Virus record (IMG/VR): IMGVR_UViG_3300038420_000029
Coordinates: 1-36,977 of that record
Length of the DNA stretch: 36,977 bases
Reading direction: 5' to 3' (one strand)
DNA from: a virus
The position numbers were made by a program, and so were the translations under genes. This document shows positions 626-36,977 of the stretch, piece after piece; the stretch's first letter is position 1; every line of letters begins with the position of its first letter. A model generated the notes under the pieces. The model did no database searches. It had not been told where the DNA came from and saw nothing but the letters and a program-made list of their open reading frames with translations.

Positions 626-816
626 CTAATCCTGGCGTCCCCTCCTCCACCACCCCGGCTGCGCCCGTCACGCAGCCGGGGCACTTCTGCGCGAAGCGCC
701 GCGCCGGCGGTATCTGCGGGATACCGCTGCGGCCGAGCTGGCTGGCGGGCTACCTCGACCACGCCGAGGCGCCGCGCTTCCGGCACTATCCCGAACCGCT
801 GAAGGAGCCGAAGTGA
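622..816 (+). CDS. Small hypothetical protein, 64 aa
   Basis: ATGA overlap with the methyltransferase remnant; its TGA overlaps the GTG of the exonuclease (GTGA at 813). The protein has two cysteines (GHFCAKRRAGGICG) followed by a Leu/Trp/His-rich tail. No family recognised. Tight coupling on both sides supports expression. Confidence 0.55.
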   Translation: MTNPGVPSSTTPAAPVTQPGHFCAKRRAGGICGIPLRPSWLAGYLDHAEAPRFRHYPEPLKEPK

Positions 817-1640
817 GCGCCCGCCCCGACCTGTCCGAGCGCACCGGCTTCTCCAAGTCCGCCTTCGGCACCTTTGAGTGGTGCCAGCAGGCAAGCTGGT
901 TCGATAAGCACGAGCGCCGGCCGGTCATCCCGAACCCCCGCATGACGTTCGGCTCCGCGGTGGACGCGGGCGTGGAGGTTGCCATCAAGTACGCGCGGAT
1001 AGGGAAGGAGCCGGACTTCGAGCGCATGGCCGACGCAGCCGACGCGGCGCTTGTGCGTGACGGCATAGAAGTGGACATGGGCGAAGTGATAGTTGCGCTG
1101 GAGGACTTTACCAGCGCCGTCCTGCCCTCCTTTGATTGGTCCCACGCCGAGCTACAGAAACACCTCACCGTCACGCTAGGCGGCATCGGCGAGGTCGACG
1201 GACACCCCGACATCATTCTGCCCGGCGAGGTGTGGGACGTGAAGACATCCACCCGCGCCCGCGAGACGGCCAAGACGGTTGAGCTCGGCACCTACGCCCT
1301 GATGCTCGAAGAGGATACCGGCAGGCCGGTGACGCGCGTCGGCTATCTCACCTGGGTCCGGCGCCTGCGGACGCCCGGCTGGCAGGTGCTCGACTTCGCC
1401 GTGGACGACGAGTTCCGCGACTGGACGCGCGCCCGCTGGGGCGGCTACGTCCGGGCGAACGCGGCCGACGATCTGCTGAATGCGCGCGGCGCCGCCCTTG
1501 GGATGGCGCCCGTGAACTACTCCTTCCCCGGTGGCCCGATCAATGGCGACCGCTGCCGGACGTGCCAATACAGCCCCGCGCTGGGCGGGCGATGCGAGAT
1601 GGCGGTGCTAGAGCCACTGCCGGGAGGTAACGACGAATGA
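813..1640 (+). CDS. Cas4/RecB-like PD-(D/E)XK exonuclease with four-cysteine Fe-S site
   Basis: 275 aa with a GTG start overlapping the previous stop. The nuclease core is visible as GEVDGHPD (D133) then WDVKTST (D142-x-K144), with an ELGTYAL segment in place of the QxxxY helix. One cysteine near the N-terminus (FEWCQQ, C24) and three at the C-terminus (C248, C251, C261) have the spacing logic of the [4Fe-4S] cluster of Cas4/AddB-type nucleases. Known relatives resect DNA 5' ends. The probable annealing protein two genes downstream suggests an exonuclease plus annealer recombination pair. The last ~100 bases are repeated identically at 35819-35918 and 36516-36615. Confidence 0.8.
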   Translation: MSARPDLSERTGFSKSAFGTFEWCQQASWFDKHERRPVIPNPRMTFGSAVDAGVEVAIKYARIGKEPDFERMADAADAALVRDGIEVDMGEVIVALEDFTSAVLPSFDWSHAELQKHLTVTLGGIGEVDGHPDIILPGEVWDVKTSTRARETAKTVELGTYALMLEEDTGRPVTRVGYLTWVRRLRTPGWQVLDFAVDDEFRDWTRARWGGYVRANAADDLLNARGAALGMAPVNYSFPGGPINGDRCRTCQYSPALGGRCEMAVLEPLPGGNDE

Positions 1641-2068
1641 CGACCCGTGAGCCGCCGCTCGGAACACCGGAAGAGGAAGCCGCCCTCTGCCGCGCCGCGT
1701 TCAAGGGCGTCAAGGTCGGCGCAATGGTCTGGCACCTACACCATGACCAACTCTGCGAGCCGCTGACCAAGCCGCCAGAGAACCGTATCGCCTACATCCT
1801 GACCCATAAGCGAAACAAGGAGCGGGCCGCGCGCCTGCGCCTGATGCGGCCGGTCTACGCCGAGGCCGTGGCTCCTGCCCAGAGGGTCCGCGTCGAGGCC
1901 GAGGTTGCCGCTCGGAAGCTCTACGACGAGGCCGAGGCTGCTGCCTGGGCGGTCTGCGCCGAGGCCGTGGCTGCTGCCCGGAAGGCCTACCACGAGGCCG
2001 TGGCTCCTGCCCATTCCGCCGAGTGCCCTAACTGCCCGTGGGACGGGAAGAGCATCTTCAATGCCTGA
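1637..2068 (+). CDS. Hendecad-repeat protein paralogue, 143 aa
   Basis: Overlaps the exonuclease by ATGA. The N-terminal ~70 residues start MTTREPPLGTPEEEAA and include a WHLHHD segment and ERAARLRLMRPV; they are shared with genes at 35302, 35915 and 36612. Then come five 11-residue repeats of an EAVAAARKAYH type, less uniform than in the other copies, and an ECPNCPWDGKSIF end. This is probably the ancestral copy, because it follows a full exonuclease gene whereas the other copies follow only the exonuclease tail. Role unknown; a coiled-coil partner of the recombination proteins is an untested idea. Confidence 0.75.
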   Translation: MTTREPPLGTPEEEAALCRAAFKGVKVGAMVWHLHHDQLCEPLTKPPENRIAYILTHKRNKERAARLRLMRPVYAEAVAPAQRVRVEAEVAARKLYDEAEAAAWAVCAEAVAAARKAYHEAVAPAHSAECPNCPWDGKSIFNA

Positions 2069-2732
2069 CCGCAAGGAGTTCGATCTCGGGGACTACATCG
2101 AGGTCAAGGACCGCATCGCCCGTTTTTACGAACTCTACGCGGGCGGCCGCCTCGTCACCGAGGAAGTCCGCGCCAGCACCGAGCCGGACGGCAAGCCGCG
2201 TATCTGGGTCAAGGCCGCCGCCTACCGCACCGCCGATGATCCGCGCCCCGGCATCGGCTGGTCATGGCTGGAACTGCCGGGCACCACGCCGTATACCAAG
2301 GGCTCCGAGTTGGAGAACGCGGAGACGAGCGCTTGGGGCCGCGCCATCGGCTCACTCGGCATCCTCATCGACAAGAGCATCGCGTCGGCGCAGGAGATCA
2401 AGAACAAGGCCGAGCCGAAGTCGGCCGCGCCGGTACGTCAATCTGAGCCAAGTAAATCGCACGACACAGTTTCTCGGCCGCCCGTTGCGCCGCAGAGGCC
2501 AGCCGCGCCCACTCCCCTACCTCGGCCTGACGCGCCGTCTGCGGCCGACGCGGACATTGACTCCCTGCTCCGCACGGCCCCCGGCGGCCCACCACGACGG
2601 CCCATTCCCATGATGTGCGGCGCCCTCAGCGACGCCCGCCTCGGGCCGGTGGAGACGTGCGTCCTGCCGCGGACACACCGCGGCCAGCATGAGGCGACCA
2701 GCGGCCACGCATGGCCGGGGGTGACGGCGTGA
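2061..2732 (+). CDS. Probable single-strand annealing (ERF/Rad52-like) phage protein
   Basis: 223 aa; the ATG at 2061 overlaps the previous stop by 8 bases and removes a long spurious N-terminal extension. Residues 84-102 read ELENAETSAWGRAIGSLGI, like the NAETSAxGRAL signature seen in phage ERF-type annealing proteins. An A/P-rich linker (about 120-180) follows, then a Cys/His tail (CGALSD..ETCVLPRTHRGQHE) that could bind metal. Annealing proteins act with an exonuclease, and one sits just upstream. The family call rests on one motif, so moderate confidence. Confidence 0.6.
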   Translation: MPDRKEFDLGDYIEVKDRIARFYELYAGGRLVTEEVRASTEPDGKPRIWVKAAAYRTADDPRPGIGWSWLELPGTTPYTKGSELENAETSAWGRAIGSLGILIDKSIASAQEIKNKAEPKSAAPVRQSEPSKSHDTVSRPPVAPQRPAAPTPLPRPDAPSAADADIDSLLRTAPGGPPRRPIPMMCGALSDARLGPVETCVLPRTHRGQHEATSGHAWPGVTA

Positions 2733-4353: not shown

Positions 4354-4817
4354 GAATCCGCCAAATCAAGCCCTCCTTCTGGACCGACGCCGTGATGTCG
4401 GGCCTGCCCTACGCGACCCGCCTGTTCTACATCGGCCTGTGGGGCCAGGCAGATGACGCCGGCTGGATGCGCTGGGATGTCTACCGCATCGGCTGCGAGC
4501 TCTACGGCGGCGAGCCGCGCAGAGCCCGCGAGCGGCGCATCGAGGCCTGGCGCGGGCAGCTCGAAGTGGCCGGGCGGCTCGAACCGCACCCTTGCGGCCA
4601 TGCCCAGATACCCCACCTGGCAGAGCACCAGCGAGTCGGGGGCCGCGCCGTCTACACCGTGCGAGACGAGCATGCGCGCGGATGCGCGCGGATGCGCGCG
4701 GATGCGCGCCCTGGTAAGGAAAGGGTAATGGTAAGTAACGGTAAGGGTACGGACGGATTGAAAGAGCGACTCGGACCCTTCGAGGAGGTCATCAAGCCGA
4801 AGGAGACAACGCCATGA
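4350..4817 (+). CDS. Phage replication-initiator / replisome-organizer N-domain protein
   Basis: 155 aa, ATGA overlap. The opening MRIRQIKPSFWTD..., then LPYATRLFYIGLWGQADDAG, is the standard N-terminal winged-helix pattern of phage replication initiators. The usual C-terminal DnaD-like part is missing: after about residue 105 the sequence becomes HARGCARMRADARPGKERV, coded by a 10-bp tandem repeat, then a short acidic/basic tail. It may be a short form or one truncated by repeat slippage. It would act at the phage origin to recruit host helicase; no origin was seen nearby. Confidence 0.7.
   Translation: MRIRQIKPSFWTDAVMSGLPYATRLFYIGLWGQADDAGWMRWDVYRIGCELYGGEPRRARERRIEAWRGQLEVAGRLEPHPCGHAQIPHLAEHQRVGGRAVYTVRDEHARGCARMRADARPGKERVMVSNGKGTDGLKERLGPFEEVIKPKETTP
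4671..4710 (+). repeat. 10-bp tandem repeat inside the replication-initiator gene (4 units)
   Basis: Four consecutive units of about gatgcgcgcg. The unit length is not a multiple of three, so gain or loss of a unit changes the reading frame of the gene at 4350. In the current state the gene stays open and reaches the ATGA overlap at 4814. Confidence 0.85.
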
Positions 4818-9375: not shown

Positions 9376-9604
9376 TAAAGACTACGACGACTACGACGAC
9401 TACGACGATCCAGGCCCCGGCCCCTTCTACGAGATCGCCTACCGCCACTTCGAGGACCACCGATACGAGGAGTTCGGAAGCACTGAGGATTATCCATCCG
9501 CAGTGCCGCTCGGCTCTCAGGTCAACGCCGAAAGTCTCTATCATGCCGATGATCTCAAGCCAGAAAGGTGGCCTGGCTTGAGTTTCCGAGCGCACCGCCC
9601 GTGA
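9371..9604 (+). CDS. Acidic hypothetical protein with DDYDDY repeats, 77 aa
   Basis: The ATG at 9371 lies in an inverted repeat. The N-terminus MSKDYDDYDDYDDPGPGPFY is coded by repeated gactacgac units. The rest is acidic/aromatic with no recognised domain. The acidic face could mimic DNA, but this is speculation. Ends in a GTGA overlap. Confidence 0.55.
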   Translation: MSKDYDDYDDYDDPGPGPFYEIAYRHFEDHRYEEFGSTEDYPSAVPLGSQVNAESLYHADDLKPERWPGLSFRAHRP

Positions 9605-29738: not shown

Positions 29739-31335
29739 AAGCGCCCTCTCCGGCGGCGACAGCCTGCAGATCATCGTCGAAATGAAGAACCTGACCTCGG
29801 CCGGGTTCAAGCAGATCCAATCCGACATCGCCAAGACCGAGACAGCCGCCGGGAGCGTCAATCTCTCAGGCGTCTCAACGGCGACAAAGAACGTCGAGAA
29901 GGACGCCACCGCGGCCGAGGGTAAGAGCGGCGGCGGCGGCATCATGGGGCTGGTCAGCGGCTTGACCGGCCTCGGCCCGCAGGGCATGGCGGTCGGCGCC
30001 GCCATCGCCGGTATGGCGGTACTCACGGGTGCCGCCATCGAACTCGGCAAGACTTACGACAGCATCGAGGCTCAGGACAAGGTACTGGATGCCGCCCTGA
30101 AGGCGCACGGCGACAGCCTCGCAAATGAAAAGACCAACCTCGACAGCCTCATCGCCTCGAATGAGAAGTACGGGCAGAACGCCGACGCCACACGCGGCGC
30201 CGTAACGACTCTGGCGCAGGCTGGGCAGAGCTGGGCAGACATCCAGAAGTCGATGCCGGCCATCCTCGACCTAGCGGCGGCGAAGCACTTGAGTCTCGCC
30301 GATGCTGCGAAGGCCGTTGAGCTGGCCGAGATGGGCAACTCACGGTCCCTCAAGCAGCTCGGCATCGTCCTTCCGACTCTCACGGCGCCCACTGCTGCGG
30401 TTACCAAAGCACAGAACGGGGTCACGACGGCGACAAAGGATCTCGCGAGTGCGCAGGCCGCCCTGACGCTCAAACAGACCGAACTCGCCGGTAAACACAA
30501 GCTGACGGCCGCGCAGTCGCTGGAACTCAAGGCGGCTGAGGACAAGGTCACCCAAGCCTCGCTGAACCTCCACGGCGCACAGAACAAGCTCGACACGGCC
30601 CAGCAAGCCGCAGCCAAGTCGGGCGACCGCCAGACCCTCGTCCTGACGGCTCTTGAAAAGCGGATCGGCGGCACGCGCAATAGCGCGACCGAGATGCAGA
30701 AAGCGCAAGCGAAGCTCTCCGACGAGTGGCAGAAGGCAGCCACGACGTTCGGGCCGGGAATAGAGCAGGTCATGTCCGCTATCACGACGGACTTCGCCCT
30801 GCTAATCGACAAGGCGATAGACCTCACCAACTGGCTCGCTAGCGTCTTCGGCTGGTTCGCCAGCCTCGCCCCGGTCCAAGCGTTCGGGACGGTCATCGGC
30901 GCGCTCGTGGGCCACTTTGGCGACCTCTGGAACATGATCCAAACCGTCATTCAGAAGCTGGCGGATCTCATCAAGGGAGTTGAGGACGCTGGCCAGGCCA
31001 TAGCCAATAGCCCCATCGGGCAACTTGCCGGAGGGCTTGGCAACCTTGGCGGCTCAATCGGCGGGGCGCTCGGCGGCATCCACCTCGCAGGCGGCGGCTA
31101 CGTTCCACCCGTGCCCGGCGGCACGCTCGCCACGTTGGCCGAGGCCGGGGTCGGCGAGTACGTCATCCCCGCCAATCAGATGAGCGGCGGCGGCGGCACA
31201 ACTTTCAACATCGTCATCGGCTCAACATTCCCGCCCACCGCCGCGCAGGCACGCGACCTCGCCAATGCACTTGAGGCTGAACTCGGCCGGCGCTTCGCGC
31301 TGCATGGCAGCTCTGCATCCTTTGGAGGCTTCTGA
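29734..31335 (+). CDS. Tape measure protein, 533 aa
   Basis: The ATG overlaps the end of the GT frame. N-terminal IIVEMKNLTSAGFKQIQSDI, a Gly/Ala hydrophobic segment (GLGPQGMAVGAAIAGMAVLT), long alpha-helical Ala/Lys/Leu repeats from 190 to 330, further hydrophobic stretches near 370-420 and a C-terminal GGYVPPVPGG / FNIVIGSTFPP end. It is short for the family, so a short tail is expected (length scales with residue count). It spans the tail lumen during assembly. Confidence 0.85.
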   Translation: MLSALSGGDSLQIIVEMKNLTSAGFKQIQSDIAKTETAAGSVNLSGVSTATKNVEKDATAAEGKSGGGGIMGLVSGLTGLGPQGMAVGAAIAGMAVLTGAAIELGKTYDSIEAQDKVLDAALKAHGDSLANEKTNLDSLIASNEKYGQNADATRGAVTTLAQAGQSWADIQKSMPAILDLAAAKHLSLADAAKAVELAEMGNSRSLKQLGIVLPTLTAPTAAVTKAQNGVTTATKDLASAQAALTLKQTELAGKHKLTAAQSLELKAAEDKVTQASLNLHGAQNKLDTAQQAAAKSGDRQTLVLTALEKRIGGTRNSATEMQKAQAKLSDEWQKAATTFGPGIEQVMSAITTDFALLIDKAIDLTNWLASVFGWFASLAPVQAFGTVIGALVGHFGDLWNMIQTVIQKLADLIKGVEDAGQAIANSPIGQLAGGLGNLGGSIGGALGGIHLAGGGYVPPVPGGTLATLAEAGVGEYVIPANQMSGGGGTTFNIVIGSTFPPTAAQARDLANALEAELGRRFALHGSSASFGGF

Positions 31336-31958
31336 TGGCTACAGGTTCTCACATCCAGGTCACCAACGGCGGCGGCCCGTTCATCGCCACTGGCCCCACC
31401 TACACTGAAGCCTCCACAACCGTTCAGGATCAGAAGGTCATCGCGGGGCTGCCGTATCTCGCCACATATCGCATCGTTACCAGCAACGGCGCGCCGCTCT
31501 CCACCAGCACGGCGAACTCGCATCTCATGGAGATCATGGCGGGCGCGTCCCTGAACGTCTACGTTCATCATATCTGGGTCCGCCAGTTTAACGCGGCGTC
31601 CGCCTCTACTGCGGCGCAGATGGATATCTACCGCCTGACTAGCGCTGGCTCTAACGGCACCGCGATGATACCGCAGGCTCTCGATCTGAGTGATGGTGCA
31701 GCGGGCGCGACGTGTCAGACCCTGCCGTCCTCGAAGGGCACCGAGAGTGGTTACGTGCTCGACCATACAAGCGCGATCTTCTGGGGTAATTCTAGCGGTG
31801 CGACCGCGCTCATCTGTGAGTGGGACTTCGGCGACGACCTGACCAAGATGCTCAAGATCGCGGCCGGGACTTCGAACGGCATCGCGGTAAAGAACACGAC
31901 GGCCGTGGCGTCGGCCACGGTGTACGTCACGGCCGAGATCATCGAGGCGCCGTTCTAA
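31335..31958 (+). CDS. Virion structural protein, 207 aa
   Basis: tgatg overlap with the tape measure. Gly/Thr/Ala-rich beta protein (IQVTNGGGPFIATGPTYTEA, LNVYVHHIWVRQFNAASAST) without known catalytic residues. Position suggests distal tail or minor tail protein; the fold is similar in style to decoration proteins. Confidence 0.55.
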   Translation: MATGSHIQVTNGGGPFIATGPTYTEASTTVQDQKVIAGLPYLATYRIVTSNGAPLSTSTANSHLMEIMAGASLNVYVHHIWVRQFNAASASTAAQMDIYRLTSAGSNGTAMIPQALDLSDGAAGATCQTLPSSKGTESGYVLDHTSAIFWGNSSGATALICEWDFGDDLTKMLKIAAGTSNGIAVKNTTAVASATVYVTAEIIEAPF

Positions 31959-33184
31959 TGCCTGCCGCAGCTCTGGCGCAGCCGCTCGGTATCTCTACGC
32001 CGCGCTCCATCCCGTTCCCTCTGCTAATCAATGGGAATGAGATCAGCGGGATCGTGGACGGCCTCAGCTATGCCATGAGCGACCCGGGCTTCACGGGCAT
32101 CCAGACCCTTGAGTTCGACATCCACGATCACAACAATGCCGTGTTCGGGTGGCTCGCCAAGCAGCAACGCGTGCTGTGGTACGACCAGTCGAAAAGCACG
32201 TATCTCTTCCAGGGGTTCGTCAAGCAGATCCAGTCCACCGCCGCCATCGGGACTGGCGGCCCCTGGCCGGACATGCACGTCACCTGTTCGCAGATCTCCG
32301 AGGTGCTCGACTTCGCGCAGCCCCTTGACGCCTGGGACGCCGGGGCGCACGGAACGAGCGACCAGGCGCAGATCCAGTGCCTCATCGCCAACATGTGCCA
32401 GGAACCGAACGTCGGCGTCGGCGGCTACATCCAGGTCTTGAACTCGTCGACCATGCCGGCCTCCATCCCGTGCGACCGCACGACGCTGCGCAACGCTACC
32501 GACGCGGTGCTCGCAGCGAACGGCGTCAATGGCAGCGTGGCCTACGTCGACAACCTCGGCCATCTTCACACCCTGACGACGGCCGGGGACGTGGCCGCGC
32601 CCTACAACATCGCAGAGCAGGCGGACCTCGTTCACAGCGTTCCGGCGCTCGTGAGCGTCGACGATCAGGGCGCGGCGGACATCGACGCGCTGTGGGTCAT
32701 CGGCGGAACCGAGGCGGCCACCGGCGCGGTAACCGCCTCAGTCTGCGGCATTACCACGCTGCCACGTTCGCCGATGCGCTGGGATACGCTGGAAGCTCCC
32801 TCCGCCGTAGACCGCAACGGCGCCATCGCTGCGGCGACGGCCGAGTTCTACATGCGCCAGAACATGTTGACGGTGACCGCGGTAGTCACGGGGTTCGACG
32901 GGTGGGCCAAGGGCCAGTCGCTCACCATCACTTCGACGCCGTTCGGCTGGACGGCTAAGTCGTTCATCATCACCGGGGTCGACATGAAGGTGCTCTCCGG
33001 TACGGGCATCCGCCAATACACCCTGACGTGTGGAACGCAGACACGCCTCATTCCCCAGGCGAAGGCCCTGACGGTGGCAATCAAGAAGGCCGCCCACAGG
33101 GCCAAGTCCAAGCCCGTCTCTGCCCGCAAGGTCACCGGCCAGACCGGACAGACCGGACAGGGCGGAACGATGCATCCCATCTGA
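31958..33184 (+). CDS. Tail tip / baseplate-like protein, 408 aa
   Basis: taatg overlap. Contains INGNEISGIVDGLSYAMSDP, LEFDIHDHNNAVFGWL, YLFQGFVKQIQ and GWAKGQSLTITSTPFGWTAK, resembling gp27-like/tail-associated hub proteins that carry virus-host contact modules. The C-terminus is basic and ends in TGQTGQTGQGG repeats. Probably the central tail tip protein. Confidence 0.6.
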   Translation: MPAAALAQPLGISTPRSIPFPLLINGNEISGIVDGLSYAMSDPGFTGIQTLEFDIHDHNNAVFGWLAKQQRVLWYDQSKSTYLFQGFVKQIQSTAAIGTGGPWPDMHVTCSQISEVLDFAQPLDAWDAGAHGTSDQAQIQCLIANMCQEPNVGVGGYIQVLNSSTMPASIPCDRTTLRNATDAVLAANGVNGSVAYVDNLGHLHTLTTAGDVAAPYNIAEQADLVHSVPALVSVDDQGAADIDALWVIGGTEAATGAVTASVCGITTLPRSPMRWDTLEAPSAVDRNGAIAAATAEFYMRQNMLTVTAVVTGFDGWAKGQSLTITSTPFGWTAKSFIITGVDMKVLSGTGIRQYTLTCGTQTRLIPQAKALTVAIKKAAHRAKSKPVSARKVTGQTGQTGQGGTMHPI

Positions 33185-33191
33185 GGTCAGC

Positions 33192-34337
33192 ATGGCAACG
33201 ACTCAGCAGATCGCCTCGCCCGGAACCTACTTCACAAACGACGTGGGCGTTGAGGTCACGGATGGGACGTACAGCCGCGTCAAGATCGGCGTGGTGATTC
33301 CGGGAGCGAACCCGTCGAACGCCTACGGCCTGGGGTTCACCGACCCCTACGGCAACCCAACGTACATCACCGGCTCCGGCTTTGGCCCGTCGTACATGTC
33401 GCTCATTCAGAGCGGCATCTACAACAACATGTTCCAGCAGGCCGTGCCCGGAACGCTGGCGCTCGGCATATCGCGCGATGATGCGACGGGCCACACGACC
33501 GGGCTGCCCTACTGGACGGCATGGTCTGCCGGGTCGAGCTTCGGCACGGCGACGGTCGTGGCCGATACGACCTGGCCGGGCGGAAACTACGTCAAGTTCA
33601 CCTTCGCCACGACGGGCTCGTCCGTGAGCGGCAACGTCGCGCTGACGAACGACCTGTCCCCGGTAATGCCGCTGGACCAGTGGAATACGGACATCATTCG
33701 GGCAGACAACATCCCGGCTGGTGTTACCCTAAACTGTGCGCGCTCCATCCTTTGGTACGACTCCACAAGCACCTACATCTCTACCTCATCAGACACTAGC
33801 ACGTACACATCGGGCCATGCTCTTACAAACTTCGGAGGCTCGGCATTTATCGCCCCATCGAATGCCCGCTACGCACGGCTTGAACTGAATGTCTGGGAGA
33901 CGGTGCTGCACAGCGCCTCAACTTATTTCGAGCTGGGTGCAGTCGCTCTCACACACACCGGCAACGGCAACGTAGGGACTGTCTACCAGATAAACGCCGG
34001 GACATCTATTTCTGCCGGGACTAGCGTTACTGCCGGCAGTAACGTTGTTTCTACGATGGCGATGGAGCTCCTCGACAGCGGCGGGACGCCAGCCGGCGGC
34101 ATTATCTTCGGTACGCCGGTCGACACACAACTCTACCGCAGCGCAGCGGGGGTGCTGACGACGCCAAACCAACTGGCGGCCACAGATGGAGTGACCAGCA
34201 GGTACAAGGCCGGCACCATCTCAGACGCCGACTTTGTGACCACTCCGCCCGATGGGACCATCGCCGTCGACGGTACGGATGGCCGGATCTACTTCCGCTA
34301 CGGTGGCGCCTGGCACTACGTCAACAAGACTCTCTGA
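33192..34337 (+). CDS. Tail fibre / receptor-binding candidate, 381 aa
   Basis: Starts six codons of spacing after the tail-tip gene. N-terminus TQQIASPGTYFTNDVGVEVT; middle is a carbohydrate-binding-like beta region (TTWPGGNYVKFTFATTGSSV, YARLELNVWETVLHSASTYF); repeated INAGTSISAGTSVTAGSNVV stalk; C-terminus TPPDGTIAVDGTDGRIYFRY plus GGAWHYVNKTL, a common fibre end. Last tail gene, followed by a terminator, so it is the likely host-recognition protein. Confidence 0.7.
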   Translation: MATTQQIASPGTYFTNDVGVEVTDGTYSRVKIGVVIPGANPSNAYGLGFTDPYGNPTYITGSGFGPSYMSLIQSGIYNNMFQQAVPGTLALGISRDDATGHTTGLPYWTAWSAGSSFGTATVVADTTWPGGNYVKFTFATTGSSVSGNVALTNDLSPVMPLDQWNTDIIRADNIPAGVTLNCARSILWYDSTSTYISTSSDTSTYTSGHALTNFGGSAFIAPSNARYARLELNVWETVLHSASTYFELGAVALTHTGNGNVGTVYQINAGTSISAGTSVTAGSNVVSTMAMELLDSGGTPAGGIIFGTPVDTQLYRSAAGVLTTPNQLAATDGVTSRYKAGTISDADFVTTPPDGTIAVDGTDGRIYFRYGGAWHYVNKTL

Positions 34338-34339
34338 AC

Positions 34340-34381
34340 GAAACGCCCCCGGTGGTCCTGCGAGACTGCCGGGGGCGTTTC
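34340..34381. terminator. 13-bp hairpin terminator after the tail fibre gene
   Basis: Perfect arms gaaacgcccccgg (34340-34352) / ccgggggcgtttc (34369-34381) with a 16-base loop and a short T run. It sits between the + strand fibre gene and the convergent - strand lipoprotein gene, so it can end both transcripts. Confidence 0.85.
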
Positions 34382-34386
34382 TGTGT

Positions 34387-34845
34387 CTAGGGCGTGATGG
34401 TCACCGTGCCGGACGCGAGCACGGTGCTGCCGCGGATGTAGCGCAGTGTATAGGTCCCGGCACCGAGCGATCCGAGCGTGTCGTCAGGGGCGTGAGCGAA
34501 CTCGTTGTCGCCGGGGTTTGCGACTGCCATCGGCTCGGTCGTGATCGTCGTCTCTGCGCCGCTGGCATCCACTGAAGCGAGGGTTAGCGTGAGGCTTGTG
34601 CCGTTGACTGAGTCGGACAGCATGGCGACCCAGCCAACAAGGTCCGTGCTGGCGAACGCCGTGCCGGGGTCGGTCACCGTCATGGCGCTGGTATCGACCG
34701 ACGCGCCAAACCAGATCGTCCCTGACGGTTGCGTAGGCGCTGCGGTTGGGCCAGGAGTGGCGGTCGGGCCAGCCGGTGCGGCGGAACTCGTCGCCGAACA
34801 GGCTGCCAGCAACAGGATCGGGAGCAGAACTAGGACTCGTTTCAT
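34387..34845 (-). CDS. Phage-encoded lipoprotein, 152 aa
   Basis: Start at CAT 34843-34845, preceded on the - strand by a strong ggaggt site. MKRVLVLLPILLLAAC gives a short basic n-region, hydrophobic core and lipobox ending at C16; a TATPGPTAAPTQPSG linker follows, then a ~110-residue beta-rich domain ending YTLRYIRGSTVLASG. It would be lipidated on the host surface. Phage surface lipoproteins often block superinfection; this is a hypothesis here. It is the only clear gene on the - strand. Confidence 0.85.
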   Translation of the reverse strand: MKRVLVLLPILLLAACSATSSAAPAGPTATPGPTAAPTQPSGTIWFGASVDTSAMTVTDPGTAFASTDLVGWVAMLSDSVNGTSLTLTLASVDASGAETTITTEPMAVANPGDNEFAHAPDDTLGSLGAGTYTLRYIRGSTVLASGTVTITP

Positions 34846-34884
34846 GACTTTACCTCCAGGGCGCAGGGCTTCCGCGCATCGGAA

Positions 34885-34914
34885 AGAGTACTCTCCCCAA
34901 TAGGTGGTTGACAA
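34885..34914 (-). promoter_or_regulatory. Promoter for the lipoprotein gene
   Basis: On the - strand, TTGTCA (reverse of 34909-34914), an 18-base spacer, and TACTCT (reverse of 34885-34890). The expected start near 34878 leaves a ~30-base leader with the ggaggt site before 34845. Confidence 0.7.
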
Positions 34915-34936
34915 GCGGCCCGCGGTCCCCTACTCT
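34908..34936 (+). promoter_or_regulatory. Promoter with TTGACA-N17-TACTCT, leaderless start
   Basis: TTGACA at 34908-34913, spacer 17, TACTCT at 34931-34936, then six bases to the ATG at 34943. The predicted +1 falls on the ATG itself, so the transcript would be leaderless. Its -35 overlaps that of the divergent lipoprotein promoter. Confidence 0.75.
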
Positions 34937-34942
34937 CTCGCT

Positions 34943-35311
34943 ATGAGCCAAAGGCGCGGTCGCGGGGAGCCGATCGCAGCTTCCGATAATGAGCGTTATG
35001 TCCGCTTCCTGCGGCCCCTCGGCCTCGGAGCGCTGCTCTTCTCCGGCCTCGCCGACTGGGCGACCTTCACCGCCTGCCCGCTCGCGGTGCGCCTGACCGA
35101 CGAGTCCGCCGGAGCGCGCGAGTACGCCGCGGCGCCCATCGTCCTGCTTGGCGTGAAGCTGCTGCTCGTGGCCTGCGCCGCGCTGGTAGCGCTCGGCTTC
35201 CGCTGGGCGCGGGAGCGCGAGCTCGAAGTGGCGTGGCTGCTGTGCCTGCTCCCCGCTGCGGCCCTCTGGTTCTACGGCGCGTGGACGAACATCGAGTTTG
35301 GTTGGAGGTAG
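34943..35311 (+). CDS. Three-helix membrane protein, 122 aa
   Basis: Start at 34943 fixed by the leaderless promoter; the longer ATG at 34904 lies upstream of the promoter's -10. Hydrophobic segments at about 28-45 (LGLGALLFSGLADWATF), 68-88 (APIVLLGVKLLLVACAALVA) and 97-115 (VAWLLCLLPAAALWFYGA) predict three helices. A multi-pass inner-membrane protein of unknown role, paired with a surface lipoprotein across a divergent promoter; superinfection exclusion is possible. Confidence 0.7.
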   Translation: MSQRRGRGEPIAASDNERYVRFLRPLGLGALLFSGLADWATFTACPLAVRLTDESAGAREYAAAPIVLLGVKLLLVACAALVALGFRWARERELEVAWLLCLLPAAALWFYGAWTNIEFGWR

Positions 35312-35784
35312 CCACGACCAAGTTCACCCCGCCGCTCGGCACACCCAAGGAGGAAGCGGCCCTCTGCCGCGCTGCGTTCGAAGGCGTTCAGGTGGGCGCG
35401 ATGGTCTGGCACCTACACCACGACAGCCTCTGCGAGCCGCTGACCGAGGCGCCAGGGAACCGCATCGCCTACATCCTGACCCAGAAGCCGCCCAAGGAGC
35501 GGGCCGCGCGCCTGCGCCTGATGCGGCCAGTCCGCGACGAGGCCGTGGCTCCTGCCTGGGGGGTCTACGACGAGGCCGTGGCTGCTGCCTGGGAGGTCTG
35601 CGCCGAGGCCGTGGCTGCTGCCCGGAAGGCCTACCACGAGGCCGTGGCTGCTGCCTGGGAGGTCTGCGCCGAGGCCGTGGCTGCTGCCCGGAAGGCCTAC
35701 CACGAGGCCGTGGCTCCTGCCCATTCCGCCGAGTGCCCTAACTGCCCGTGGAACGGCAGGAGCATCTTCGGAGGTGCCGCATGA
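35302..35784 (+). CDS. Hendecad-repeat protein paralogue (six repeats)
   Basis: Frame open from before 35233; the homologous start is missing: where sister copies have ATG, this has GCC then ACG ACC, the ACG at 35314 lying five bases after a ggagg. Start set at the TTG 35302 as a compromise. The N-domain TPPLGTPKEEAALCRAAFEG ... ERAARLRLMRPV is near-identical to 1637-2068; six 11-residue repeats (EAVAAAWEVCA / EAVAAARKAYH) and the ECPNCPWNGRSIFGGAA end follow. ATGA overlap with the 45-aa ORF. Confidence 0.65.
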   Translation: MEVATTKFTPPLGTPKEEAALCRAAFEGVQVGAMVWHLHHDSLCEPLTEAPGNRIAYILTQKPPKERAARLRLMRPVRDEAVAPAWGVYDEAVAAAWEVCAEAVAAARKAYHEAVAAAWEVCAEAVAAARKAYHEAVAPAHSAECPNCPWNGRSIFGGAA

Positions 35785-35918
35785 CACCCCAGGCACACCG
35801 CCGCGTCATCACGGTTATCAATGGCGACCGCTGCCGGACGTGCCAATACAGCCCCGCGCTGGGCGGGCGATGCGAGATGGCGGTGCTAGAGCCACTGCCG
35901 GGAGGTAACGACGAATGA
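35781..35918 (+). CDS. 45-aa Cys module, copy of the exonuclease tail
   Basis: ATGA overlaps at both ends. MTPQAHRRVITVINGD is new, then from base 35819 the DNA is identical to the last ~100 bases of the exonuclease gene, coding DRCRTCQYSPALGGRCEM with all three Fe-S ligand cysteines. It could bind metal or form part of a cluster with another protein, or be only a carrier for translation coupling. Confidence 0.6.
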   Translation: MTPQAHRRVITVINGDRCRTCQYSPALGGRCEMAVLEPLPGGNDE

Positions 35919-36481
35919 CGACCTGTGAGCCGCCGCTCGGAACGCCCGAGGAGGAAGCGGCCCTCTGCCGCGCCGCATGGGACGCCCATCCCTCGAAGTG
36001 GGGCTGGCACATCCATCACGAGATCCTCTGCGAGGACCGGCTCTACCCGATTGAGGAACGCATCGCCTACATCTTGACGAGCAAGGCACCCAAAGAACGA
36101 GCGCTTCGCCTGCGGCTGCTGCGCCCGGTCATTGACGACGCCATGGCCGCGATCCAGAAGACCTACGCCGACGCCATGGCCGCGATCCAGAAGACCTACG
36201 ACGACGCCATAGCCCCGATCTGGAAGACCTACGACGACGCCAGGGCCGCGATCCAGAAGACCTACGACGACGCCAGGGTCCCGATCTGGAAGACCTACGA
36301 CGACGCCAGGGCCGCGATCCAGAAGACCTACGACGACGCCATGGCCGCGATCCAGAAGACCTACGACGACGCCATGGCCGCGATCTGGAAGACCTACGCC
36401 GACGCCATGGCCGCGATCCATGCCCGCGAGTGCCCGAACTGCCCGTGGGACGGGGAGAGCATCTTCGGAGGTGCCGCATGA
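35915..36481 (+). CDS. Hendecad-repeat protein paralogue (nine repeats)
   Basis: 188 aa, ATGA overlap. N-domain MTTCEPPLGTPEEEAALCRA, WGWHIHHEILCEDRLYPIEE and ERALRLRLLRPV, then nine 11-residue repeats (DAMAAIQKTYD with R/I/M and W/Q variants) and HARECPNCPWDGESIFGGAA. The repeat region is 33-bp periodic (36137-36433). N-domain is nearly identical to 36612. Role unknown; an elongated helical rod ending in a CxxC knuckle is inferred. Confidence 0.8.
   Translation: MTTCEPPLGTPEEEAALCRAAWDAHPSKWGWHIHHEILCEDRLYPIEERIAYILTSKAPKERALRLRLLRPVIDDAMAAIQKTYADAMAAIQKTYDDAIAPIWKTYDDARAAIQKTYDDARVPIWKTYDDARAAIQKTYDDAMAAIQKTYDDAMAAIWKTYADAMAAIHARECPNCPWDGESIFGGAA
36137..36433 (+). repeat. 33-bp in-frame tandem repeats (9 units)
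   Basis: Nine 33-bp units in phase with the gene at 35915. Same repeat as at 16-279 and 36834-36977. Sub-types differ at atg/agg/ata and cag/tgg codons, indicating repeated unit shuffling. Confidence 0.95.
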
Positions 36482-36615
36482 CACCCCAGGCACACCGCCG
36501 CGTCATCACGGTTATCAATGGCGACCGCTGCCGGACGTGCCAATACAGCCCCGCGCTGGGCGGGCGATGCGAGATGGCGGTGCTAGAGCCACTGCCGGGA
36601 GGTAACGACGAATGA
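36478..36615 (+). CDS. 45-aa Cys module, second copy
   Basis: Identical in sequence and ATGA contacts to the ORF at 35781. The spacing between the two starts is 697 bases, the length of one duplicated unit. Same three-cysteine end as the exonuclease. Confidence 0.6.
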   Translation: MTPQAHRRVITVINGDRCRTCQYSPALGGRCEMAVLEPLPGGNDE

Positions 36616-36977
36616 CGACCTGTGAGCCGCCGCTCGGAACGCCCGAGGAGGAAGCGGCCCTCTGCCGCGCCGCATGGGACGCCCATCCCTCGAAGTGGGG
36701 CTGGCACATCCATCACGAGACCCTCTGCGAGGAGCGGCTCTACCCGATTGAGGAACGCATCGCCTACATCTTGACGAGCAAGGCACCCAAAGAACGAGCG
36801 CTTCGCCTGCGGCTGCTGCGCCCGGTCATTGACGACGCCATGGTCCCGATCTGGAAGACCTACGACGACGCCATGGCCGCGATCCAGAAGACCTACGCCG
36901 ACGCCATGGCCGCGATCCAGAAGACCTACGACGACGCCAGGGTCCCGATCTGGAAGACCTACGACGACGCCAGGGCC
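36612..36977 (+). CDS. Hendecad-repeat protein paralogue, 5' part (runs off window)
   Basis: 122 codons with no stop. The N-domain matches the gene at 35915 with few changes (HHETLCEERLYP). Four repeats and four residues (DARA) follow before the window ends. The phase is such that two missing residues (AI) would join it to the open frame at base 1, giving a protein of about 230 residues in a closed genome. Confidence 0.75.
   Translation, partial: MTTCEPPLGTPEEEAALCRAAWDAHPSKWGWHIHHETLCEERLYPIEERIAYILTSKAPKERALRLRLLRPVIDDAMVPIWKTYDDAMAAIQKTYADAMAAIQKTYDDARVPIWKTYDDARA
36834..36977 (+). repeat. 33-bp in-frame tandem repeats, cut by the window end
   Basis: Four full 33-bp units plus 12 bases, in phase with the gene at 36612. 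Same family as the repeats at 16-279. Confidence 0.92.

Follow-up and report, generated by a model that had tools for sequence, protein, structure and literature searches.

An uncatalogued family of phage and Patescibacteria proteins with repeat-built stalks, duplicated in one viral genome by recombination at short identities

The described systems closest to the genes reported here are recombination modules of the RecE/RecT-like and Sak4-like kinds, hendecad coiled-coil proteins, the Rad50-type zinc hook (a CxxC motif on a coiled coil), variable tandem-repeat proteins and IS607-family transposons. These genes, which we call R, occur four times in a viral DNA of 36,977 bp, the entire IMG/VR record IMGVR_UViG_3300038420_000029 (hereafter the window). 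R lies between or beside genes of RecE/RecT-like or Sak4-like modules in the window and in other records (L116, L022, L118 and L028), but it is neither a nuclease nor an annealing protein, and we found no known third component of its shape. With hendecad coiled-coil proteins R shares the period of 11, the 3-4-4 hydrophobic spacing and a confidently predicted single helix, whereas its family also includes heptad and non-repetitive members, always between constant N- and C-terminal parts. Like the zinc hook, R ends a coiled-coil stalk with a CPxC motif; however, it has no ATPase head, its motif is C-terminal and follows a histidine, and no sequence relation was found. As in variable tandem-repeat proteins, whole units are gained or lost between near-identical genomes, and R adds to this that the gene itself is duplicated in tandem, through recombination at short identities, together with the 3′ end of a neighbouring gene. 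The likeness to IS607-family transposons comes from two circular contigs (L088 and L091) with a MerR-HTH and serine-recombinase TnpA, although the element there has an MT-A70 methyltransferase instead of TnpB and R lies outside its ends.

All four R genes of the window are on the plus strand. R1 (35302–35784, also present in the sibling contig locus L004) has six hendecads and an A/W-type body, R2 (35915–36481) has nine of I/Q-W type, and R4 (1637–2068) has five and overlaps the stop codon of an exonuclease gene by ATGA; R3 starts at 36612, is truncated where the record stops at 36977 and probably resumes at 1–327, a 3′ part with eight hendecads. They share an N-domain of ~70 amino acids (WHxHHxxLxE), 11-residue coiled-coil repeats and an LHxxECPNCPW end, found in the longer form LHxxECPNCPWDGxTIF in R1, R2, R4 and the 1–327 fragment. 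The R ORFs are exactly 33-bp periodic (TRF scores 168–469, far above chance), with arrays at 35535–35721 in R1, which also has a 66-bp higher-order repeat, at 36134–36420 in R2 and at 1852–2012 in R4. A preliminary description of the window, made from its letters alone, had reported these related proteins, their common parts and their differing repeat numbers (5, 6 and 9 in the complete genes), and our analysis bears it out. Its 697-bp tandem unit agrees with the start-to-start distance between R2 and R3, but the first unit, from R1 to R2, is 613 bp. Because substitutions and a different order of units set R2 apart from R3, the two are distinct copies. R1 is without a canonical start: the codon matching the ATG of R2 is ACG, and the ORF start at 35302 is a TTG sitting on the ribosome-binding sequence.

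The preliminary description had also joined the gene at 36612 to positions 1–327. Repeat arrays of one kind occupy both ends of the record and a naive end-to-start join is in frame, but it is 6 bp short of the 33-bp period. Because the record is linear in IMG/VR's classification, shows no end repeat and is out of register when plainly joined, we infer the join rather than read it; the two parts are probably pieces of one gene, with any number of units between them. On the minus strand, between the late genes and the array, an ORF at 34387–34914 has a lipoprotein-like signal (LLAACS) and could encode a superinfection-exclusion lipoprotein.

Two identical 45-aa ORFs (35781–35918, also found in L004, and 36478–36615, both on the plus strand) join the R genes through ATGA overlaps. 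Each reads MTPQAHRRVITVINGDRCRTCQYSPALGGRCEMAVLEPLPGGNDE, which is the MTPQAHRRVITVINGDQ... start of a short plus-strand ORF at 324–434 continued in frame by an exonuclease tail, ...INGDRCRTCQYSPALGGRCEMAVLEPLPGGNDE. The short ORF has no family match in a PHROG search. The tail consists of the last 30 codons of a PD-(D/E)XK exonuclease gene (813–1640, plus strand), whose product passes the PDDEXK_1 profile (PF12705, E = 2.4e-5, 24.8 bits against a cut-off of 22). The switch from one parent to the other lies inside a 13-bp sequence, ATCAATGGCGACC (encoding INGD), which occurs at 360–372 and again at 1539, 35817 and 36514. The exonuclease tail has GGGAGGTAAC ahead of the ATG of the R gene that follows and overlaps it, so that R2 and R3 each receive their start signal from the fusion in front of them; in the first fusion ORF this ribosome-binding site of R2 sits at the 3′ end. 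R2 and its preceding fusion are ~97% identical to the exonuclease-tail/R4 start over ~160 bp, after which identity drops to 50–73%; thus, R2 and R3 are mosaics. R1 has an R4-type body and a different upstream sequence. The array was built by recombination, as it had looked to the preliminary description, and this took place at short identities; both the 13-bp junction and the mosaic genes record it. The 45-aa Cys ORFs that it saw alternating with the repeat genes do exist, with their ATGA overlaps, but they are not a separate module: they are recombination scars made of exonuclease tail.

A second contig, IMGVR_UViG_3300017931_000027 (22,431 bp), matches window positions 30302–36271 at 99.6%, carries R1–fusion–R2 and ends within R2. 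The two differ by six substitutions, one 12-bp deletion and an array difference. Two of the substitutions are adjacent (window 35315–35316) and fall on the lost start codon of R1, which is ACG in the window and ATC in L004, while the sibling R2 (L012) is without exactly units 4–7, a four-unit difference for which assembly collapse is possible. This variation does not point to a diversity-generating retroelement, since whole 33-bp unit loss, a 12-bp deletion and six mixed substitutions are not the adenine-directed variation of a template/variable repeat pair. In a further pair, L015 and L019, a ~830-bp cassette with 96.5% DNA identity lies between unrelated flanks, and the stalks measure 59 and 147 residues, 8 units apart and both 4 mod 11; the stalks of R1, R2 and R4 (63, 96 and 52 residues) are all 8 mod 11. 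Stalk length changes in whole units. The preliminary description's term “rapidly evolving” suits the near-clonal window and sibling, four units apart, and L015/L019, eight units apart, but in the pairs L019/L021 and L024/L026 the arrays are identical or almost identical, and therefore the family is not hypervariable everywhere.

We searched for relatives with single proteins and with alignments, in viral records and in 84,980 genomes of bacteria and archaea. The family was found in ~42 viral contigs and in MAGs of Candidatus Yanofskybacteria, in whose order 4 of 45 genomes have it; two other MAGs gave short C-terminal matches only, and a plasmid search gave none. The window proteins align with 26–29 members over the N-domain (WHxHHxxLxE...RLRLxKPV), with R genes detected at E-values down to 2e-45. 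Near-invariant positions are HxHH, R50, I54, K58, E62, RLxL, H126, C130, C133, W135 and G137. N-domain dN/dS is 0.15–0.49 for most paralogue pairs, which indicates purifying selection in these; it is near 1 for L008 and L015/L019, and the R2/R3 pair has too few changes for an estimate. This is a real, uncatalogued protein family of phages and Patescibacteria. We found no relative in Pfam, PHROGs, NCBIfam, PADLOC, PDB sequences or named phages, and literature searches on hendecad/phage and variants returned no described family or relevant paper, in agreement with the preliminary description, which knew of no system of this form. R itself matches no annealing family by profile or fold, its members having no Pfam, PHROG or NCBIfam family in common, and the LEA_4 profile of the LEA group 3 11-mer proteins is absent from the Pfam matches listed for 29 members. 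The Pfam and PHROG matches of R2 (tape measure, OmpH and others) were discarded as coiled-coil noise, a different family appearing for each member. Five Corynebacterium phages (Cruella, Kimchi1738, PeteyPab, Stickynote and Zion) were likewise rejected as isolate relatives: the match is an 11-bp intergenic minisatellite read in frame, without the N-domain. In the Corynebacterium phage loci (L082–L086; for example, 6534–6743 of L082), this minisatellite, TATGGGCGCAC, has 12–19 copies, varying between isolates, and is followed by long A/T-rich repeats.

Family members keep both ends, and their stalks are heptad, hendecad or non-repetitive. The period is 11 in the window, L005, L015, L017 and L019, 7 in most others, and not clear in L010, L034 and L072. 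In the window proteins, self-identity at lag 11 is 0.44–0.87 compared with at most 0.21 at lag 7, and DDAMAAIQKTY shows the 3-4-4 hydrophobic spacing that fits a hendecad coiled coil, the repeat type named in the preliminary description. AlphaFold2 predicts R4 (pLDDT 91.5) as a small N-domain, one continuous straight helix from 75 to 129 and a C-terminal knuckle; the N-domain alone is predicted with a pTM of 0.79. No significant fold match was obtained for the whole model or the N-domain against the PDB, or for the N-domain against BFVD. The C-terminal Cys-Cys/His end probably binds zinc. If the stalk is one helix, we would guess that only an antiparallel dimer could bring the HxHH of the N-domain and the C-terminal H-x3-C-x2-C together. 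It is unusual for a family to hold its ends constant while the stalk is freely heptad, hendecad or neither, its length set by the number of DNA repeats.

Genes next to R gave a suggestive picture. The exonuclease overlaps R in L022 as it does R4 in the window; in L116 a RecT-like annealing protein, R and an exonuclease stand in a row with gaps of 2 and 9 bp; in L118 R is 12 bp from a Sak4-like annealing protein; and in L120 it adjoins a primase. Immediate neighbours elsewhere include endonuclease VII (L099) and RNA ligase (L104). Whole-record scans with five exonuclease/annealing families left most records without a match, and in 8 of the 9 positive records the match was at most 2.5 kb from R (median gap 980 bp). 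Under a uniform null this proximity has P = 2.5e-5; under a clustered null, in which R may fall anywhere within 7 kb of genes from these families, P = 0.034, and P = 0.12 for the median gap. A location of R beside exonuclease/annealing genes is thus suggested. The preliminary description had set the window array beside an exonuclease and an annealing protein. The exonuclease holds, but the ORF downstream of R4 (2061–2732, plus strand) matches only PHROGs of unknown function (phrog_23738, E = 2e-30) and hypothetical proteins, with no annealing-family profile, Pfam or PDB match; that it encodes an annealing protein is plausible. We rejected a DNA methyltransferase as a constant neighbour: one lies immediately downstream of R in L005 and L009, and R is near one in L033 and near the remnant of one in the window, but most methyltransferases in the whole-record scans are far from R. 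The window has, at 431–625 and 474–617, a frameshifted remnant of the C-terminal part of a DNA cytosine methyltransferase with its motifs spread over two frames.

We tentatively propose, and would give it nearly an even chance, that R is a dimeric or oligomeric spacer or adaptor rod in the phage exonuclease/annealing recombination module, diversified by recombination. Each paralogue has a small N-domain, a predicted helical coiled-coil stalk and a Cys-Cys/His end as a putative zinc binder, and the assembled rod may serve as spacer or adaptor within the exonuclease/single-strand-annealing module, the length of the stalk setting that of the spacer. Through the 33-bp (or 21-bp) repeats, the phage recombination machinery might lengthen and shorten the stalks; the same machinery, at short identities such as the 13-bp ATCAATGGCGACC, might have duplicated the R gene in the window, each new copy bringing along the exonuclease tail and its ribosome-binding site. 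That R so often stands beside exonuclease/annealing genes points to a structural partner still missing from the picture of phage recombination. However, the neighbourhood P value under the clustered null is only 0.034 and genes for replication and recombination cluster in any case, most records match none of the five families, the Yanofskybacteria gene stands alone with no recombination gene adjoining in the loci read, and no fold or sequence match offers a biochemical clue. A more far-reaching form of this proposal, in which the array diversifies itself without a reverse transcriptase, is improbable in our judgement. Exonuclease/annealing machinery would there keep resizing the 33-bp (or 21-bp) tracts and shuffling paralogues, a population would hold many stalk lengths, and length, as a feature of the recombination machine, would be tunable and under selection.

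R could instead be a selfish or mobile DNA cassette, spread through easily recombining repeats and short flanking identities, with any role of the protein secondary. In Yanofskybacteria (L036–L041) it is a dispersed solo cassette, in several copies per genome at unrelated chromosomal loci, and homology between the paralogues reaches no further than about −54 to +75 bp relative to the gene; in MGJU01 the homology ends at a terminator-like hairpin. The L015/L019 cassette with its unrelated flanks fits as well, as do two 2.1-kb contigs from different samples (L088 and L091, end repeats of 39 and 32 bp), which give the same 2,068-bp circle, closing head-to-tail inside an R gene. Besides this R gene (~11 hendecads), the circle has a 56-aa ORF and genes for an MT-A70 methyltransferase and an IS607-type recombinase. 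These other three make up a mobile element of ~1,408 bp, and insertions at other sites (L123/L147) place its ends 6 bp before the R gene and ~21 bp after it. We therefore rejected R as cargo of an IS607 circle; because the element ends exclude R, the collapse during assembly of tandem R copies flanking an insertion explains the circle better than a transposon circle does. These element ends, the purifying selection on the N-domain in most pairs and the rarity of a recombinase travelling with R (PF00239 in 3 of 38 records) all argue against a selfish cassette, which we consider unlikely. The IS607-type elements of ~1.4 kb, in which a TnpA (MerR HTH and serine recombinase) is accompanied by an MT-A70 adenine methyltransferase and not by TnpB, occur in L088, L091, L123, L141, L147 and others; L126 has an IS607-type element with another methyltransferase-like ORF. 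Such elements are common in viral contigs, with 62 TnpA relatives, and a literature search on IS607/MT-A70 returned nothing relevant.

Copy number may also be in part a product of assembly: if the population was mixed, short reads could have been looped through 33-bp units and common ~70-bp sequences, and the phage would then have fewer R genes than its record. The window is broken inside the array at both ends, the sibling ends in R2, and G020 (38,474 bp) is broken like the window, with an R N-terminal part at one end and a C-terminal part at the other. Contig ends fall inside R genes 8 times against 1.6 expected (6 of 40 viral records, P = 3e-4), and 5 times against 1.45 with the window and its sibling left out (P = 0.016). 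Moreover, ~70 bp are common to the ends of R1 and R2, which would permit a loop at small k, and the R2–fusion–R3 step is seen in the window record only. The preliminary description had itself named a single copy, duplicated in assembly, as the alternative to its array; R1–fusion–R2 is reproduced in the 99.6% contig, and the substitutions and unit order that distinguish R2 from R3 also speak against looping. The related arrays that it expected in other phages are present: several unrelated viral records have two to four clearly diverged tandem copies, which collapse or looping could not create (two in L106, 7 bp apart; two in L102; two in L008/L027; four in G016; three in G017; also L033 and L034). 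We regard assembly as a quite unlikely source of the copies; since short-read assemblies seem to break in R genes, viral databases may undercount the copies. In G020, paralogous ORFs (..ALPVPALDALL..) lie on both sides of the R gene (L077 710–1039, and after R in L076), as if a neighbour had been duplicated with the array.

As a stalk protein of structural or envelope/virion type (a fibre, a scaffold or a lysis accessory), R would tune host interaction through its length. This would suit a coiled coil with variable repeats, the position of R1–R3 after late genes and a membrane-protein-like ORF (34904–35311), and weak repeat matches to tape-measure and tail families; it is very unlikely, as those matches are coiled-coil noise in which members share no family, the members read have no obvious signal peptide or membrane segment, and small DNA-metabolism genes are the neighbours in many records. 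Equally improbable is a counter-defence or host-takeover protein made in several variants with stalk lengths for different host targets, which the small, often multicopy genes and the divergence of the R1/R4 N-domains from those of R2/R3 would allow, but PADLOC gave no defence family common to members, just scattered weak coiled-coil matches, the family is also in bacterial chromosomes, and selection on the N-domain is purifying rather than diversifying in most pairs.

Away from the R genes, the window has two perfect short tandem repeats within ORFs, one of 10 bp (ATGCGCGCGG, 3.8 copies, 4672–4709) and one of 9 bp (GACTACGAC, 3.2 copies, 9380–9408).
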